A stretch of 64,000 nucleotides of DNA from Fluviicola sp. (GTDB lineage: Bacteria > Bacteroidota > Bacteroidia > Flavobacteriales_D > Crocinitomicaceae). This document shows positions 15,105 through 61,356 of this stretch, piece by piece. Under the pieces are notes generated by a model that was not told the DNA's origin, ran no database searches, and saw nothing but the letters and a program-made list of their open reading frames with translations. The stretch spans positions 1-64,000 of the forward strand of contig NZ_JAQSWB010000014.1 in the NCBI RefSeq assembly GCF_029266855.1, given 5' to 3'. Position 1 is the first letter of the stretch; every line of letters starts with the position of its first letter. The translations under genes were made by a program, and so were the position numbers.

Positions 15105-18100
15105 ATGAAAACAACTACTTTTCGAGGTTATTTACTACCTCTATTTATCCTTTTAAGTTTTTCAGGCTTCTCACAGGGTTCAGATACCCAAGCCGGTGCC
15201 ACCGCATCTCCGATCACCTTGCCTTTTAACGCAGCGGGATCAACTAGCACTGCAGCAAACAATTATGATGCTGTTGGGACTACGTTTGATGATGGTCCCG
15301 ATTGGTATTATTATTACTGTGCAACTTCAAGTGCGACTATTTGGGTAAATATTGCCTTTACACCCGGCGGATTAGCAAATCCTGTAATGCCTTCGATCAC
15401 GGTTTTGGACGGGACAGGAACTTTGCTGGGACAAACACAAGTTTTTGGAGATATTTCAGGTAGTTATGGAATTCCTTTTACCCCATTATCAGGTGAATGC
15501 TATTATTTTGTAGTTGATAATGATGGCGTATCGGGTCCTCCGGGATTTAATTATACTATCAATATTTCAAATACCGTTCCGGTACATCCGGCCAATCCTA
15601 CGCAACCAGCTTGCACAAATATTGGGTTTGATGCCGGATCAACTTCAGGTTGGCTTGGTTCCTGGGGGCATTCCATGCAAACGGGCATATCACCGCAACC
15701 TACTCCAACCTATACACCTCTGTTTTATAACACCAGCGGGGGACATCATACGGTTACAACTCCCGGATCTGATTTGCAGGCACCCATTCAAACAGTTTGT
15801 CCCCTGATACCGGGAAACACCAACTCTCTGATGGTGGGCGACGGACCAAACGGGGCTTATGGAGGAGCGAGTATTGAACAGAAGTTCCAGGTAACGGCTT
15901 CCAATGCCCTTTTTACATACTATTACGCATTAGTTATTCAAGATGGGGGTGCTTCCGGATCAACGGCCCATACGGATCAGGAACAACCTTATTTCAAAAT
16001 TGATGCTTTAAATTGTGCCGGTGTTCCAATTGCCTGCGGGAACTTATTGGTTACCGGAGGTCCGGGAATTCCCGGGTTCACCCAAATCGGAACTACAGGA
16101 ACTTACTGGAAAGACTGGACGGCTGTAATGCTGGATTTAACACCTTACATTGGTTCCTGCGTTACCATGCGATTTACTGTCGGGGATTGTTCTATAGGAG
16201 CGCATTACGCATATGCCTACCTGGATGCTACATGTGCACCAATGAATATTGTAGCTCCGCCGAATATCTGCCAGTTCCAAACATCCACATTAACAGCTCC
16301 AACCGGTGCTGCAACATATTCATGGGTAGAAACCTCTGCACCCGGAACGGTACTTGGAACAACAAACACCTTATCCATTACACCAACTGCAACAGGGACA
16401 TTCAATTATCAATGTACGATGACCTCGATAACCGGTTGTAATTCTACTTTAACTTCCTCAGTAACCGTTTTACCTACACCACAAATAACGGTTACCAACC
16501 CACCGGCTGTCTGTTCGCCAGCAACGATTGATCTGACAAGTGCGAGTGTGGTTACCATTAATTCGGGTTCGGGAACTCTAGGGTATTTTTCCGATGCTGT
16601 GTGTACCATTCCGATCGCATCTCCGAATGCTGTTGCGGTAAGCGGAACCTATTATATTCAAATCCTAAATGCAAATGGTTGTTATGAAGTTGAACCGGTA
16701 AGTGTTATAGTTAATACGACTCCGAATACCAATGTAATTACAGCTAACCAGTCAATTTGTCCCGGAGGCAGTGTGAATTTAACAAGCACCGTGACCCCGG
16801 TATCGAGTACAACTCCAATGACTTTCACAAATACAACAGATTTTGTAGTTCCGGATGGAGTTTCCCAGGTCTCTTCCCCCATCACGGTTTCCGGAGTGAA
16901 TCCCCAAACACCTGGCGTGTTGCCAATTGTTTCGGTATGTATGAACTTAACACATACCTGGGATGAAGATCTTCAGATCTACCTGCAATGTCCGAACGGC
17001 ACCTTGTTGAATTTATCTACCGGTAATGGATTGGATGGCGATAACTATACGAACACCTGTTTCACTCCGACAGGAACGTCTATTTTAGCGGGAGCTGCAC
17101 CATTTAATGGCAGTTTTACACCTGAACAAGCTTTTACGGCATTGAACGCCTGTAGTGTGAATGGAACCTGGAACCTGGTGGTTTCGGATAATTTTGCAGG
17201 GGATCAGGGTACAATACTGGATTGGTCGATTACTTTTAATTCGTTTAGTCCGGGAGCTACTTTTGCGTGGATGCCAACGACAAATATGACCAATTCAACC
17301 ACGCTTTCTCCAACAGTTATACCGGCTGCAACAACCAGCTATACTTTAACCGGAACAAGCGGAACGGGAGGTTGTACTTCTGCAGACCAGGTTACTATTA
17401 CTGTAAATCCCTTACCGACAGCAACAATTTCTGGTGCAACAACCGTTTGTCAGAATGCCGCTGCACCAATAATTACCTTTACTGGCGCAAATGGCACAGC
17501 ACCATATACCTTTACTTACAACATCAATGGCGGAGCAAATCAAACCGTAAGCAGCGGGGCAGGAACAACAGCAACTGTCACCGCACCAACCGGAACTTCC
17601 GGAACATTTACTTACAATTTGGTAAGCGTAACAAGCGTAATGGGCTGTTCTCAGAATCAAACAGGTTCAGCTATTGTAACGGTAAATCCACTTCCTACAG
17701 CAACTATTTCAGGAACCACAGCTATTTGTCAGAATGCTGCTTCACCAACGATTACATTCACAGGAGCAAACGGCACAGCCCCTTATACATTTACTTATAA
17801 CATCAATGGCGGAGCAAATCAAACGATAAGCAGCGGGGCCGGAACAACGGCAACTGTTACGGCACCAACTGCAGCTTCGGGAACCTTTACTTATAACTTA
17901 GTGAGTGTGACCAGTGTTATGGGATGTTCTCAAAATCAAACCGGTTCAACCATTATTACAGTGAACCCCTTGCCAACTGCAACTATTTCGGGAACAACAA
18001 CCGTTTGTCAGAATGCGGCTTCACCAACAATTACATTTACAGGAGCAAACGGCTCGGCACCATACACCTTTACTTACAATATCAACGGCGGAGCAAATCA

Positions 18101-21100
18101 AACGGTAAGCAGCGGGGCAGGAACAACAGCAACTGTTACCGCACCAACAGCAACTTCCGGAACATTTACTTACAACCTGATCAGTGTGGCAAGCAGTACT
18201 GCTTGTTCTCAAAATCAAACAGGTTCAGCGATTGTAACGGTAAATCCACTTCCAACGGCAACTGTGTCGGGAGGGACAACTGTTTGTCAGAACGCTGCCG
18301 CACCGACAATTACATTCACAGGAGCAAACGGAACAGCACCATATACTTTCACTTATAATATTAATGGCGGAGCTAATCAAACGGTAAGCAGCGGAGCCGG
18401 GACAAGTGCAACTGTTACCGCACCAACAACCACTTCGGGAACCTTTACCTATAATTTGGTAAGCGTGACCAGCACAATGGGCTGTTCTCAGAACCAAACC
18501 GGTTCAACCATTGTAACGGTAAATCCGCTTCCAACAGCAACGATTTCCGGTACGGCGACAGTTTGTCAGAACGGAGCTGCGCCAAGTATTACATTCACAG
18601 GAGCAAGCGGAACAGCTCCTTATACATTTACTTATAATATTAATGGCGGAGCTAATCAAACAGTAAGCAGCGGGGCCGGTTCAACAGCTACGGTTGCCGC
18701 TCCGACCGGAACCACCGGAGTTTTCACCTATAATTTAGTAAGTATTTTGAGCTCGACGACTTGTTCTCAGAATCAAACAGGAAGTGCAACCGTCACGGTT
18801 AATCCGACACCGGCAATTACGGGAATATTTACAGCTTGCGCCGGATCAACGACACAACTTAGCGGAAGTGGAACTCCTGCTGCGGTAAGTCCCTGGACAT
18901 CATCCAATACAGCTGTGGCAACAATTTCCACAACAGGATTGGTGACAGGAGTAGCCCCAGGAACAAGTACGATTACTTACACTAATTCAGCAGGATGTTT
19001 TGTGACACAGGTTGTTACAATTACTTCCGGAGCTACAATTTCAGGAAATTTATCTGTTTGTGTTGGTGCTACCACCCAATTAAGTGGAACCGGAACTGCC
19101 AATACAACGAATCCATGGGTTTCTTCAAATACGGCAGTTGCTACAGTTTCAAATACCGGGTTGGTTACCTCACTAACGGCAGGCACTACAACAATTACTT
19201 ATACGAATTCGAGCGGATGTTTGGATAATGAAGTAGTAAGCGTAAATCCATTGCCTACAGTAACAGGTTCGGATGTATGTATCGGAGGTACCACACAATT
19301 AACGTGGTCCGGAACTGCAAATGCAACAACTCCATGGACTTCATCCAATACTGCTGTTGCTACCATTTCAAACACAGGTTTACTCACCGGAGTATCTGTC
19401 GGTTCAACAACCATTACTTATACCAATTCCAATGGATGTTCAAATACACTTACGCTGAATGTGGTTGGAAATCCTGCACTTACCGGGACAATGAATGTTT
19501 GTATCGGCGCAACAACACAGTTGTCTGCAACCGGAACTCCGAATGCAACGAACCCCTGGTCATCCTCAAACACGGCGGTTGCTACAGTTTCAAATACCGG
19601 ATTAGTAACAGGTATTTCTGCCGGAACAACAACGATTACATTTACCAATTCATCGGCTTGTCAGAGTACAGCGCTTGTTACGATTAATCCGCTTCCGACA
19701 ATTACGGGCACTTTAAGTTTGTGTGCAGGATCAACGACTCAATTAAGCGGTTCTGCAACTACCAGTGCAACAACTCCATGGACTTCATCCAATACTGCTG
19801 TTGCTACCATTTCAAACACCGGTTTGGTTAACGGCGTTTCGGCAGGAACAGCAATTATAAGCTATACAAATAGCAACGGCTGTTCTCAAACTGCATCAGT
19901 TACTGTAAACGCATTACCAACTGCAACGATTTCAGGTGCGTCAACAATATGTGCCGGTTCAAGTGCAAATTTCACTATTTCGGGAACGCCAAATGCAACA
20001 GTGATCTACTCAAATGGAACAACGAATTCGAATGTGGTTTTAAATGCGGCTGGAACTGCAACAGTTAATACCGGAGTTTTAAATACTTCAACAACTTACA
20101 CCCTTGTTTCTGCTCAATCGGCTGCTCCGGCATCATGTGGTAATACACTCAGCGGATCCATTACGATAACCGTAAATCCGAATCCGGTAATGAGTCCGGT
20201 TGCCAATACAAGTGTGTGTCCGGGATATAATGTGACGATTCCATTGTTTAGCTCTAATCCTGCCGGATCAACTTACAGCTGGACAAATACAAATACTGCC
20301 ATTGGGCTCGGAGCAAGTGGAAATGGTGATATTCCGACTTTTACAGGAGTAAATCCGGGGACAACTCCTATTAGCGGAACGATAACAGTTATTCCAACAT
20401 TGAACGGATGCACGGGCTCAAGTGTTACTTTTACGATTGGAGTTAGCAATAACCCAACTGCAAATGCCGGGGCCGATATCAGTTTATGTATCAACTCACT
20501 GACAGGGAATCAGATCGGTTCTGCATCAGTAACAGGGAATTCGTATTCCTGGAATCCGACTACCGGTTTAAGCGATGCAAGCATTTCGAGTCCAACTGTG
20601 AATACAGGAATTGCAGGAACGACATCTTATACGGTGACGGTAACAAATGCCTCGGGTTGTGAAGCAACAGATATCGTTTCAGTTACTATTCATCCACTGC
20701 CTTTGGTTTCTTTTAACAGCAGTGCAATTGATGGTTGTGCACCGGTTTCAATTTCTTTTACGAATACAAGCCCGAATTCGGTGAACTGTGTCTGGACTTT
20801 TGAAGACGGAGGAACTGAAGTTGGATGTGGAACTATTTCGCAGCAATTCAATACAGCCGGGACATTCGATGTTACGTTGACGATTACCGACGGAAACGGA
20901 TGTTCGAATTCATTAAGCGATAGCGACCTGATTACCATCTACCCGGAAGTGGATGCATCTTTCGGTGTAAATGTTTATGAGCAATCTGTATTGTATCCCG
21001 TATTTAATTTCAGCAATACTTCAACAAACGCAACTTCCTATAGTTGGGAGTTTGGTGATGGAACTACATCTACCCAAACAAACCCGACGCATACTTACGA

Positions 21101-21479
21101 CGATAAACCGGGAGTGTATCATGTTATTCTATATGCCTCGAATGCGGCAGGTTGTATCGACAGTGCAGTGGCAGTAGTTTCTGTAATTGACGAATTGATT
21201 TTCTATGTACCGAATGCATTTACACCTGATGGCGATGAATTCAACAATGTGTTTTTACCGGTATTTAGTTCCGGCTTTGATGGACAGAATTATACCTTAA
21301 TGATCTTTGACCGTTGGGGAGAAGTATTATTCGAATCCCACAATGTAGACTTCGGATGGGATGGAACCTATGTGGGGCAGTTATGCAAGGAAGGTGTATA
21401 TACCTGGAAAATAATTGTCAAGGAACGAAACAAAGACAAGCACCATGAATATATAGGGCATGTGAATCTTTTGAAGTAA
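15105..21479 (+). CDS. Giant surface protein with T9SS type B (gliding-motility-associated) C-terminal domain
   Basis: A 2124-residue secreted protein. Signal peptide 1-24; PPC-like region about 40-145; an anchor-like beta-sandwich about 170-380; Ig-like segments; a proprotein-convertase P-domain-like part about 573-716 (HTWDEDLQIYLQCPNG, GTWNLVVSDNFAGDQG); five near-identical 93-residue repeats 769-1233 (each starting PLPTAT, with GANGTAPYTFTYNINGGA); about five BIG2-like repeats of roughly 70 residues, 1234-1602 (WTSSNTAVATISNTGLVTG); PKD domains from about 1865 (YSWEFGDGTTS); and a CHU_C/gliding-motility C-terminal domain from about 2029 (VPNAFTPDGDEFNNVF, YEWKI-like YTWKIIV). The tail directs export through T9SS and type B attachment; a role as adhesin or surface fibre is an inference. 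No catalytic domain was recognised. Confidence 0.88.
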   Translation: MKTTTFRGYLLPLFILLSFSGFSQGSDTQAGATASPITLPFNAAGSTSTAANNYDAVGTTFDDGPDWYYYYCATSSATIWVNIAFTPGGLANPVMPSITVLDGTGTLLGQTQVFGDISGSYGIPFTPLSGECYYFVVDNDGVSGPPGFNYTINISNTVPVHPANPTQPACTNIGFDAGSTSGWLGSWGHSMQTGISPQPTPTYTPLFYNTSGGHHTVTTPGSDLQAPIQTVCPLIPGNTNSLMVGDGPNGAYGGASIEQKFQVTASNALFTYYYALVIQDGGASGSTAHTDQEQPYFKIDALNCAGVPIACGNLLVTGGPGIPGFTQIGTTGTYWKDWTAVMLDLTPYIGSCVTMRFTVGDCSIGAHYAYAYLDATCAPMNIVAPPNICQFQTSTLTAPTGAATYSWVETSAPGTVLGTTNTLSITPTATGTFNYQCTMTSITGCNSTLTSSVTVLPTPQITVTNPPAVCSPATIDLTSASVVTINSGSGTLGYFSDAVCTIPIASPNAVAVSGTYYIQILNANGCYEVEPVSVIVNTTPNTNVITANQSICPGGSVNLTSTVTPVSSTTPMTFTNTTDFVVPDGVSQVSSPITVSGVNPQTPGVLPIVSVCMNLTHTWDEDLQIYLQCPNGTLLNLSTGNGLDGDNYTNTCFTPTGTSILAGAAPFNGSFTPEQAFTALNACSVNGTWNLVVSDNFAGDQGTILDWSITFNSFSPGATFAWMPTTNMTNSTTLSPTVIPAATTSYTLTGTSGTGGCTSADQVTITVNPLPTATISGATTVCQNAAAPIITFTGANGTAPYTFTYNINGGANQTVSSGAGTTATVTAPTGTSGTFTYNLVSVTSVMGCSQNQTGSAIVTVNPLPTATISGTTAICQNAASPTITFTGANGTAPYTFTYNINGGANQTISSGAGTTATVTAPTAASGTFTYNLVSVTSVMGCSQNQTGSTIITVNPLPTATISGTTTVCQNAASPTITFTGANGSAPYTFTYNINGGANQTVSSGAGTTATVTAPTATSGTFTYNLISVASSTACSQNQTGSAIVTVNPLPTATVSGGTTVCQNAAAPTITFTGANGTAPYTFTYNINGGANQTVSSGAGTSATVTAPTTTSGTFTYNLVSVTSTMGCSQNQTGSTIVTVNPLPTATISGTATVCQNGAAPSITFTGASGTAPYTFTYNINGGANQTVSSGAGSTATVAAPTGTTGVFTYNLVSILSSTTCSQNQTGSATVTVNPTPAITGIFTACAGSTTQLSGSGTPAAVSPWTSSNTAVATISTTGLVTGVAPGTSTITYTNSAGCFVTQVVTITSGATISGNLSVCVGATTQLSGTGTANTTNPWVSSNTAVATVSNTGLVTSLTAGTTTITYTNSSGCLDNEVVSVNPLPTVTGSDVCIGGTTQLTWSGTANATTPWTSSNTAVATISNTGLLTGVSVGSTTITYTNSNGCSNTLTLNVVGNPALTGTMNVCIGATTQLSATGTPNATNPWSSSNTAVATVSNTGLVTGISAGTTTITFTNSSACQSTALVTINPLPTITGTLSLCAGSTTQLSGSATTSATTPWTSSNTAVATISNTGLVNGVSAGTAIISYTNSNGCSQTASVTVNALPTATISGASTICAGSSANFTISGTPNATVIYSNGTTNSNVVLNAAGTATVNTGVLNTSTTYTLVSAQSAAPASCGNTLSGSITITVNPNPVMSPVANTSVCPGYNVTIPLFSSNPAGSTYSWTNTNTAIGLGASGNGDIPTFTGVNPGTTPISGTITVIPTLNGCTGSSVTFTIGVSNNPTANAGADISLCINSLTGNQIGSASVTGNSYSWNPTTGLSDASISSPTVNTGIAGTTSYTVTVTNASGCEATDIVSVTIHPLPLVSFNSSAIDGCAPVSISFTNTSPNSVNCVWTFEDGGTEVGCGTISQQFNTAGTFDVTLTITDGNGCSNSLSDSDLITIYPEVDASFGVNVYEQSVLYPVFNFSNTSTNATSYSWEFGDGTTSTQTNPTHTYDDKPGVYHVILYASNAAGCIDSAVAVVSVIDELIFYVPNAFTPDGDEFNNVFLPVFSSGFDGQNYTLMIFDRWGEVLFESHNVDFGWDGTYVGQLCKEGVYTWKIIVKERNKDKHHEYIGHVNLLK
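17409..18803 (+). repeat. Five in-frame 279-bp tandem repeats
   Basis: Units begin at 17409, 17688, 17967, 18246 and 18525, each exactly 279 bp (93 codons), and the array ends at 18803. Each unit encodes the same Ig-like module of the giant surface protein, with few substitutions. The identical length and high similarity point to recent expansion or continuing homogenisation by recombination, and make copy-number variation between strains likely. Confidence 0.93.
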
Positions 21480-21529: not shown

Positions 21530-21763
21530 TGGTTTTTAGCAGTTAAATATATTTTTGGATGTTAAAAATATATACAAACGTAACTATATCTATGCTTCAT
21601 TTATGCTTTATTCATGCGATGAATATGCTTTAAATATGGAATATGAAAGCAGTAAAGTGGTTTGACTATTATTCTGTCTTGACCAAAGCAGATCAAACAA
21701 ATGATCGCTTCGGATCGAATGAGACGAAACCTTCCACCTTGGCGGACTAGCGCTGTCCTTCGG
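21530..21763 (-). repeat. Composite dispersed repeat, copy 2 (inverted)
   Basis: Read on the minus strand this copy has the same order of blocks as 61003-61225: a 90-bp block (21763-21674) matching 61003-61092 with seven differences by eye, all transitions; then a variable stretch with gcat-type iterations (21645-21596); then a 26-bp block (21595-21570) identical to bases 88-113; then an AT-rich block similar to 117-141. The 90-bp block contains the palindrome-like tagtccgcc...ggtggaa at 21732-21749. It encodes no protein. Confidence 0.85.
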
Positions 21764-42093: not shown

Positions 42094-42123
42094 GCGGTCA
42101 TTTAAACAAAAATAAGAAAAAGC

Positions 42124-42324
42124 GGCAGCTTTTGAAGACTGAGTTACAACAAACGTTAGTGCGACAGTAACGAGGGAAAAGCGGATAGTCCGCCGCGGCG
42201 GAAAGACTGAGATACGACACTTACGAAGTATGCACCGCAGGTAAACGTTGCGCCTACGCTGAAGCTACTGCGTAAGCGTTAGGTGGCAGCTTTTGAAGAT
42301 CAAATCATAACAAACGTTAGTGCG
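42124..42324 (+). repeat. Pair of 40-bp direct repeats around a GC-rich palindrome
   Basis: ggcagcttttgaaga begins both copies (42124 and 42285) and acaaacgttagtgcga ends both (to 42164 and 42324); the middles differ. About 120 bases of unrelated, more GC-rich DNA lie between, including tagtccgccgcggcggaaag at 42187-42206. The arrangement looks like a small insertion flanked by duplicated sequence, without any encoded enzyme. Confidence 0.7.
42189..42203. repeat. GC-rich palindrome, REP-like
   Basis: tccgccgcggcgga within tagtccgccgcggcggaa is a perfect palindrome. The flanking tag and aa are shared with the copy at 61017-61034, which ties this site to the composite dispersed repeat, and the centre is shared with 11074-11089. 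Confidence 0.7.
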
Positions 42325-42389
42325 AAAATGATTTGAGAAACCAATAGCTCGTTCATTCGGAAATATTGGAAACGAGGGATACATACATC

Positions 42390-47208: not shown

Positions 47209-47787
47209 ATGAATCAACAAGCTTATTTTCATTTAACCACCAATCTTCACGATAGTCGCACTTCCCGACGAATGATTGTCTATAGAGCCCGGGAAAGACG
47301 TTTTCACGGAACACTCCCTCAACCGGATGTTTATTACATGAATATGGAGGAAGAAACGCTCATAGCAAAGGAAGTTTTTTTGTTGTCGAATGAATTGGAT
47401 TTCGAAGTCATTGCATTAAATCTTTGCAGGGACCATATGCATTTATTGATTTATTGCGAACGGGATGAAGTTCCGAAGATTATGCATCGGGTAAAAGGTC
47501 GGACAGCTCGCGTGTGTAACGTGTATCGCGCGGCCAAGGGGATTAATCCCCTTGACGCGACGAACGGAAGATACGAGCCGAGAACTTTAAAGGATAAATC
47601 GATCCCTTTTTGGACCCAGAAGTATCATTGCAAAGTGATTTGTAATCCGGATCAATTACTAAACACCATTGCATATATTCGAAATAATCGGAAGAAGCAT
47701 GGTTTACCTACCAACCCTGCGCTACAAAATTTAATAGATAAAAACCAATTAGCTGCTTCTCCGAATGTGATTGTAAACCTGATATAA
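47209..47787 (+). CDS. RAYT-type (REP-associated tyrosine) transposase homologue
   Basis: A 192-residue HUH-type single-strand DNA nuclease homologue of the Y1/IS200-like superfamily. The metal-binding HUH motif is H76-M-H78 in LCRDHMHLLIYCE, and the likely catalytic tyrosine is Y156 in NTIAYIRNNRKKHGL, preceded by the usual PFWTQKYHCKVI. RAYT proteins are domesticated and bind or cut REP palindromes; the gene is single and has no insertion-sequence ends that I can see. Residues 109-116 are encoded by a perfect 20-bp palindrome (47535-47554), an unusual insertion between the HUH motif and the tyrosine. The 3' end overlaps a small minus-strand gene by 39 bases. Confidence 0.85.
   Translation: MNQQAYFHLTTNLHDSRTSRRMIVYRARERRFHGTLPQPDVYYMNMEEETLIAKEVFLLSNELDFEVIALNLCRDHMHLLIYCERDEVPKIMHRVKGRTARVCNVYRAAKGINPLDATNGRYEPRTLKDKSIPFWTQKYHCKVICNPDQLLNTIAYIRNNRKKHGLPTNPALQNLIDKNQLAASPNVIVNLI
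47535..47554. repeat. Perfect 20-bp palindrome inside the RAYT reading frame
   Basis: caaggggattaatccccttg is fully self-complementary, and cgcg occurs just outside on both sides (47527-47530 and 47556-47559). It is in frame and adds residues AKGINPLD to the protein. Its shape is that of a REP-like hairpin. Confidence 0.85.
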
Positions 47788-60814: not shown

Positions 60815-61002
60815 AACTGTTGTATTTGTTATGTCAAAGATGAATGCTTATAAAAGAAGAATAGCTGTCATTTTAGGAGTCGGGACTACCTTTTGATTAT
60901 TCGTGGTTGAAAGGAGATTATTTGAATTACTCTCCCGGATTTTTATTTCCCTTCTTCGGCATTGGTTTGTGATTAATAACTAGGGACAATATGACGGAAA
61001 AG

Positions 61003-61225
61003 CCGAAGGACAGCGCTAGTCCGCCGGGGCGGAAGGCTCCGTCTCACTCGATCCGAAGCGATCATTTGTTTGATCTGCTTTGGTCAAGACGGAAAAGCCG
61101 AGGGACATAACGTAGTTTTAGCATAGGTACTCCGTCTTTCAAGCATGAATGAACCATGATTGAAGCATAGATGAAGCATAGATATTTAACTCTTCGTTGG
61201 CGCGGGGCTCTGGCTCATGCCACCC
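61003..61225 (+). repeat. Composite dispersed repeat, copy 3
   Basis: The most complete copy in the window. It contains the 90-bp block 61003-61092 (inverted match at 21763-21674), with palindrome-like tagtccgccggggcggaa at 61017-61034; then aagcatgaatgaa-type iterations with gaagcatagat twice (61162-61183); then ttggcgcggggctctggct (61197-61215), matching 165-182 at the window start. A 13-base phrase (gacggaaaagccg) occurs on both sides of the 90-bp block (60994-61004 region and 61088-61100). No protein is encoded. Confidence 0.85.
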
Positions 61226-61303
61226 ATTCCTCTGCATGTAAAGTCTTTAATTGTATCCTACTAATAGCTATTGCCTAATCACCATTGCCTAAAAAAAATG
61301 GTG

Positions 61304-61336
61304 CAAAAAAGCCCATCCGATAAAAACGAATGGGCT
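61304..61336 (-). terminator. Terminator of the M1 peptidase gene
   Basis: agcccatccg (61310-61319) pairs with cgaatgggct (61327-61336) with one mismatch around a seven-base loop; on the minus strand the stem runs into six T. It lies 20 bases beyond the stop at 61357. Confidence 0.85.
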
Positions 61337-61356
61337 ACAATTTCTTTGTAATTTTA

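Follow-up and report, generated by a model that had tools for sequence, protein, structure and literature searches.

Mosaic intergenic hairpin repeats of Fluviicola, most likely a non-autonomous REP/BIME-like DNA

Three module mosaics in the window

The window, by which we mean the whole stretch of 64,000 nucleotides analysed (the start of contig C13 of a 4.30-Mb Fluviicola sp. genome, G000 hereafter; other genomes, contigs and loci carry G, C and L numbers), contains three copies of a noncoding composite repeat, each made of a different subset of modules. The copy at 61.0 kb lies on the + strand and was resolved by the module map, with folding for its hairpins, into module S (CCGAAGGACAGCGCTAG, 61003-61019), which is the tail of a preceding unit, the palindrome P (TCCGCCGGGGCGGA, 61020-61033), the hairpin H (61035-61099, with arms at 61035-61044 and about 61086-61099), the 37-bp hairpin insert I within the loop of H (61048-61084), module S2 (GAGGGACATAACGTAG, 61100-61115), module T (61127-61153), four 11-bp iterons of which the first two are diverged and which overlap the end of T (61141-61184), and module E (TGGCGCGGGGCTCTGGCTCATGCC, 61198-61221), which is also seen in BLASTN matches. 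The pairing of H was counted on copies lacking I. Written as a string, this copy is S-P-H[I]-S2-T-iterons-E. The second copy, recognised by its matches and the module map, is inverted (- strand, 21534-21763) and reads S-P-H[I]-iterons-R-R2, and the third (+ strand, 1-187) consists of nine exact 11-bp iterons (CATAGATATAG, 1-99) followed by R, R2 and E (100-187). A second unit type, named after its inner hairpin ACAAACGTTAGTGCG, was identified by the unit model R1 and by reading of the array at 42111-42339 on the + strand, where two units (42111-42178 and 42271-42339) enclose a third enlarged by loop inserts, and where the array adjoins a -7 box.

The sequence relations reported by the first-pass annotation proved exact. 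Positions 61003-61092 and the reverse complement of 21674-21763 differ at exactly 7 of 90 bp, all of them transitions; positions 88-113 equal the reverse complement of 21570-21595 (26/26); positions 165-182 match 61198-61215 over 18 bp with one mismatch; and the claimed lack of an open reading frame is reflected in stop-to-stop frames of at most 50 codons throughout 60815-61356. The single ordered element of about 200 bp which it had described survives in the constant order and polarity of the modules. The composition differs from site to site, and the common fixed ends that such an element would have were not borne out, a mosaic of modules being found instead.

Two contigs begin inside these repeats, C13 at window base 1 and G000:C7 at 1-217; the assembly therefore breaks there and the arrays may be longer. 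The window also holds a 279-bp tandem repeat of 4.7 copies (17403-18700) within a large gene (15105-21479).

Extent of the family

Dispersal of the repeat was confirmed by BLASTN of the 223-bp query against its own genome, which gave 71 matches, 21 of them at E <= 2.3e-17, and thus establishes a repeat beyond chance. The loci were merged into 43 stretches, to which 20 more were added for module mapping, and the modules follow a single order in one polarity: P, Q (GAAGACTGAG), H, S, T, 11-bp iterons, R, R2, and then E or X+Y. Modules X and Y (e.g. C3:255568-255746) form a third repeat pair, ACGTAGCGACTGTAAAGTCTGCTACTGTC and CTTGACCGTAGCGTCAATGGAAG, which takes the place of R-E at some sites. 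Hand counts over the mapped stretches gave 17 clusters whose H loop contains I, the window holding two of these, and 26 clusters in which R accompanies iterons; R is oriented toward a gene start in 18 of these 26 (again by hand), which bears on a promoter reading of the 11-mer/R part. As had been proposed from the window, most clusters are intergenic, whatever the arrangement of the neighbouring genes, and the few that overlap frames, as called by length only, do so at gene ends (e.g. C1:1034891 and C1:935374). The base unit comprises two hairpins in about 58 bp; the second type has P, GAAGACTGAG and CGAGGGATA in common with it and differs in the inner hairpin.

Model R1 matches 13 of the 14 genomes of the genus at E <= 0.01. 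With at most 150 candidates scored per genome, the counts fall from G013 (59), G000 (54), G012 (50), G007 (42), G002 (40), G008 (29) and G001 (21) through G005 (14), G006 (11), G003 (6), G004 (5) and G011 (4) to G009 (1) and G010 (0). A DNA query holding both unit types (E <= 0.001) is matched in 9 of 30 genomes, all within the genus, and in none of the 16 genomes outside it; the hairpin-unit family appears to be specific to Fluviicola. A query for the iteron-R-E part is positive in 4 of 59 genomes, strongly only in G000 and G007, the other two matches being short. In a scan of named genomes an exact 26-base pattern has its sole match in the UBA7666 MAG, an exact 25-base pattern of the iteron-R part was not found in viral contigs, and the 223-bp query gave no match in plasmids and phages at the thresholds used. 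A literature search restricted to papers outside subscription found no published description of this repeat, which does not establish its absence from print.

The longest arrays reach 11 units, and one of them, L190 (G013:C1:1383306-1383990, in a genome of 4,633,577 bp), consists of eleven units of 59 bp. The F. taffensis genome paper lists one CRISPR repeat (PMC3236050), which might be this array. A CRISPR or integron attC array was rejected as an identity for the units, which are contiguous and enclose neither variable spacers nor cassettes; nor does the 59-bp repeat appear to match the attC core consensus.

Placement and age of the promoter copies

The placement of the units was read at 83 loci (84 sources), a single first unit standing for each locus. 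At 69 loci a candidate start of a frame of at least 70 codons lies within 60 nt of the end of P, 5 more loci lie at a stop codon and 9 elsewhere; the exact promoter motif TAnnTTTG occurs in 48, and the unit often abuts the -7 box. The four bases 5' of the P stem are TAAG in 61 loci, GAAG in 10, CAAG in 4, TGAG in 2 and others in 6, and the source of (A)TAAG is often the opposite strand of a -7 box, or a stop codon with a G after it. Within arrays, AAG precedes 35 of the 56 internal units and is the most frequent form in 13 of the 22 array loci, so that the tail of a unit often, though not always, supplies part of the TAAG string. The string has its limits: TAAG is inexact in 22 of the 83 loci, and AAG is missing from 21 of the 56 internal units. 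Gene arrangement at the 69 promoter-type loci is codirectional in 36, divergent in 31 and unread in 2; the + strand points away from the gene that it adjoins and, in the codirectional cases (36 of the 67 read), is antisense to both genes. The genes downstream, named by eye, include rseP, ligA, panD, sufE, uvrB, lptB, murB and galE, a mixed set without common theme, and a regulon was discarded.

Many promoter copies are old and common to several species. The units could be seen as functional cis-elements, that is, DNA cruciforms or terminator/insulator structures upstream of -7 boxes or after some stops, whose pairing would be selected and of which the window composites would be rearranged or decayed derivatives. 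Besides the proximity to candidate starts and to TAnnTTTG described above, and paired changes seen by eye between orthologous copies, this is favoured by the filling of the same site across species, as with rseP in six genomes (G000, G002, G004, G005, G007 and G012), and by the conservation of the unit: in 11 groups comprising 34 orthologous pairs, identity is 85% for the first unit, against 60% for third positions of unchanged codons and 55% for the upstream 100 bp (Wilcoxon p 1e-10, the pairs not being independent), the coding start standing at 78% (two of its values are lowered by a misread frame at L250), and the panD and nitroreductase ortholog pairs are identical at 58 of 59 positions. 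Such identity fits selection or a homogenising copying; however, non-orthologous units of different genomes are nearly as alike (80% on average, 1925 pairs), so that copying could explain the identity of the orthologs. Moreover, the downstream genes share no theme, the same promoters stand without a unit by R1 at 20 of 20 sites in five genomes chosen for few or no units, the mixed gene arrangement is a poor fit to a plain terminator, and the spacers that hold the window copies have no promoter on their P side. We regard cis-elements as an unlikely explanation of the family, and a promoter or insulator role, which the units may have, as putative.

Structure of the units

The stems change in sequence and yet keep their pairing through paired changes. 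For the second type, 22 units drawn from 22 loci have 87.6% of their cells paired and a covariation score of 0.323; shuffled rows give 0.138 +- 0.014, none of 500 shuffles reaching the observed value, and slid partners give at most 0.125. In 20 family-1 units 93.0% of cells pair and the score is 0.270 against 0.151 +- 0.014 (0/500), while further pair types (16 against 16.8) do not exceed those in shuffles; all rows were hand-chosen from available loci, and some of the family-1 rows are shifted by one base in P. The outer helix is GA/AG in one unit set where it is AA/TT in another. The folding energies of second-type (family-2) units are not unusual and that of one family-1 unit is (z -4.4 as DNA, -3.3 as RNA); the structural case rests on covariation.

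The structured-RNA element suggested earlier is upheld as to structure and not as to RNA. It would be carried by the + strand, as a 3' or 5' UTR element or a small RNA, and has on its side the covariation of the stems, a fold of one unit into an outer pair, a GA/GA internal loop and an inner helix, and, two near-fixed U-G pairs apart, an excess of G-U (37 cases) over A-C (11 cases) when the + strand is read (p 2e-4, uncorrected for kinship), which points to that strand as the one that folds. But the folded strand is directed away from the gene next to it and for the most part is antisense to the promoter that it adjoins. RNA hairpins prefer GNRA loops. The P loops of the 83 loci, by the best-hairpin rule, are GNA in 31, GNYA in 20, GNRA in 4 and others in 28 (GNNA loops 24 in total), that is, 51 GNA or GNYA loops against 4 GNRA. 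Extraordinarily stable DNA mini-hairpins are formed, according to one study (PMC4686876), by GNA or GNNA loops together with two G-C pairs, and the observed loops fit these at least as well as RNA. In Rfam, nothing in the window reached a gathering score, and seven array loci (E <= 5) gave only RAGATH-21 (24 bits) and Flavo-1 (20.9 bits), both at chance level and far below gathering. Taken together, the strand evidence and the loop types moderately favour a DNA hairpin over RNA; an RNA function of the element is the less likely, and as an explanation of the whole family we find it improbable.

Gain and loss of copies

The mobility implied by the first-pass term "miniature mobile" element is supported by the dispersed copies, by orthologous sites without modules and by presence/absence differences between two close genomes. 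The modules are absent from the orthologous 21.6-kb spacer in G007, G012 and G013, and from both the 61.0-kb and the 0.1-kb spacers in G007, G012, G002 and G013, single iteron decamers with one mismatch being found in two of the relatives' spacers (L298 and L300); the three window copies are read as having arisen in the window's lineage. In G013, the spacer orthologous to 21.5-21.6 kb contains a degenerate related hairpin, seen by eye (L292, about 120-210; R1 E 0.066), plus an extra open frame, so that the site may have been occupied more than once. At C10:440862 the corresponding place in G007 (L309) holds iterons and R in diverged form, and the iteron-R part may thus be of greater age. Similar stretches, diverged and built on other 11-mers (ATATCCCAATG in G007), lie upstream of genes (L309, about 520-640; L304, about 400-460).

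For the close pair G001 and G008 six sites were aligned, with flanks mostly 90-98% identical, and yielded one clear empty/filled site, one probable one, and one gain or loss of a unit. At rtcB, the distance from ATGGATAAG (GATAAG) to the next ATG is 10 nt in G001, which is empty, and 262 nt in G008, which is filled. At L263 a unit is present in G001 and absent from G008. A 63-bp hairpin loop insert occurs at L262 in G008 only and at aroC in G001 only, at an identical point (AAACGTT^AGTGCG). At C50b one 64-bp unit, lying between direct repeats, is missing from G001, and L266 is rearranged between the two genomes. Which allele is derived, by gain or by loss, we infer. Of the marks of a MITE of a DDE insertion sequence, terminal inverted repeats and a target duplication, neither is seen at rtcB, the sole clean empty/filled pair; no target duplications were seen at the window sites, whose exact junctions are unreadable, and no excision product was seen. 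The notion that the P stem copies the host flank, hinted at by rtcB in G012 and G008 and by L206, was dropped because, to judge by the empty G001 rtcB allele, the insert brought the 5' arm with it.

Perfect stems of many sequences, the whole-unit difference between direct repeats at C50b, pieces nested in loops and other palindromes, noted by eye, in the relatives' same spacers would all suit an origin without dedicated movement, by template-switch palindromes, slippage of unit number and spread through recombination, but this very improbable account does not readily explain how new dispersed sites arise, rtcB in G008 for one, why two unrelated loci carry one 63-bp insert at an identical point, or why TAAG is preferred. 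The palindromes in these spacers are perfect (e.g. AACAGTAGGGGCGG...CCGCCCCTACTGTT; L272, L290, L293-L295), and, by eye, the genus has several further intergenic palindrome families.

Search for a mover

No transposase gene was found beside the units. The window encodes a RAYT-like Y1 transposase (47209-47787, + strand), scoring above the Pfam cut-off for Y1_Tnp and 45.9 bits for NF047646 (cut-off 80). No other match in its own genome passes that Y1_Tnp cut-off, and neither modules nor units lie near the gene, so that a RAYT mover identified by linkage was rejected. Across the genus, 26 RAYT-like matches were found at 20 loci, in 9 of the 10 genomes searched, and up to about 1.5 kb on each side of these loci, some of which end early at contig ends, there is no unit by R1 (E <= 10) or by the hairpin-plus-GAAGA rule. 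Since 14 of 15 genomes searched have a RAYT-like match, the presence of RAYT does not separate unit-bearing from unit-free genomes. A RAYT-like remnant joined to another frame occurs in G000 (L030 1081-1359; C14 about 78834-79112); iterons and R, which are not a P-H unit, lie no more than about 0.2 kb beyond this remnant (78936-79091). No preference for the lagging-strand template was detected among the loci listed for two complete genomes (13/34, p 0.23), a comparison that gene orientation confounds.

Discussion

The model we propose, to which we assign a probability of about 0.55 and which is the most likely among those weighed, is that the window copies are non-autonomous, mosaic, REP/BIME-like hairpin DNA, which some single-strand process attaches 3' of ATAAG. 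The + strand would fold into the hairpin P, usually as GC-loop-GC, and a second hairpin of the H or ACAAACGTTAGTGCG type. A putative Y1/HUH-like enzyme, supplied in trans and working on hairpins of single-strand DNA, or else template switching at the hairpins, would then join the unit 3' of ATAAG; the joining enzyme is one that we infer. Because many units end in (N)AAG, the joining can be repeated, and this would make the head-to-tail arrays possible. The composite P-H[I]-T-11-mers-R-E would result from the stacking and recombination of units with further repeat modules, and would afterwards have been dispersed between genes in the window's lineage.

Elements of the IS200/IS605 type insert 3' of a short fixed string without duplication. 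The Fluviicola units would resemble them in their insertion 3' of a fixed short string and in their single-strand hairpins, and differ in that no transposase lies inside and no lagging-strand bias was found. The closest parallel in organisation (PMC3116915, PMC6006769) is with the REP/BIME/REPIN sequences and their RAYT, which are likewise short intergenic palindromes in many copies, with mosaic clusters, tandem arrays and likely single-strand hairpins. Many dispersed extragenic palindromic copies were indeed found here. In contrast to REP/REPIN, however, the unit has two unlike hairpins in direct and not inverted arrangement, its stems vary by locus, and P is preceded by AAG/TAAG and followed by GAAGA: no GTAG (or GGAG) foot was found 5' of the hairpin, where TAAG, GAAG or CAAG stand in 75 of 83 loci, no inverted REP pairs (REPIN) were found, the arrays running head to tail in one orientation, and at none of the 20 RAYT-like loci do repeats flank the gene as REPs do. 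The family thus works like REP/BIME and, without inverted pairs, GTAG foot or RAYT linkage, is set apart from it and is not a member.

Two further classes come near. Subclass 2.6 of TnpA_REP, with its "atypical secondary structures", belongs to the same phylum, the Bacteroidetes, and combines unusual hairpins with copies elsewhere in the genome; according to PMC6006769, and comparing by description, its structures flank tnpA, whereas none of the 20 RAYT-like loci (0/20) has a unit. The CGTC-tagged REPs are, according to PMC3733652, palindromic repeats without linked transposase that also occur in Bacteroidetes, and those of Neisseria are interleaved with other repeats in large mosaic regions. 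They have an unpaired CGTC tag and one small palindrome, as against the two-hairpin unit of about 58 bp described here, in which an unpaired CGTC at the palindrome end is absent and P is flanked by (T)AAG before and GAAGA after.

A bolder version of the model is conceivable, and we advance it as a speculation, more doubtful than not. The units would form an undescribed orphan class of DNA hairpins whose ATAAG join string is contained within the extended -7 box and, in variants, within their own tail. Such a class would seed the upstream edge of housekeeping promoters, grow head-to-tail arrays, host second-order hairpin inserts in its loops and evolve by paired changes, a selfish repeat thereby having become the fixed structural edge of many promoters in one genus.

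On the REP/BIME-like reading, bacteria would have one more kind of hairpin-repeat population, found in a genus whose type strain is in culture, and a single short join string would account for the adjacency of copies to -7 boxes, to stop codons and to one another. The close genome pair G001 and G008 would offer a way to test REP-like DNA movement without an adjacent transposase. Finally, should the promoter copies matter for expression, a selfish repeat would here have been converted into part of a promoter.
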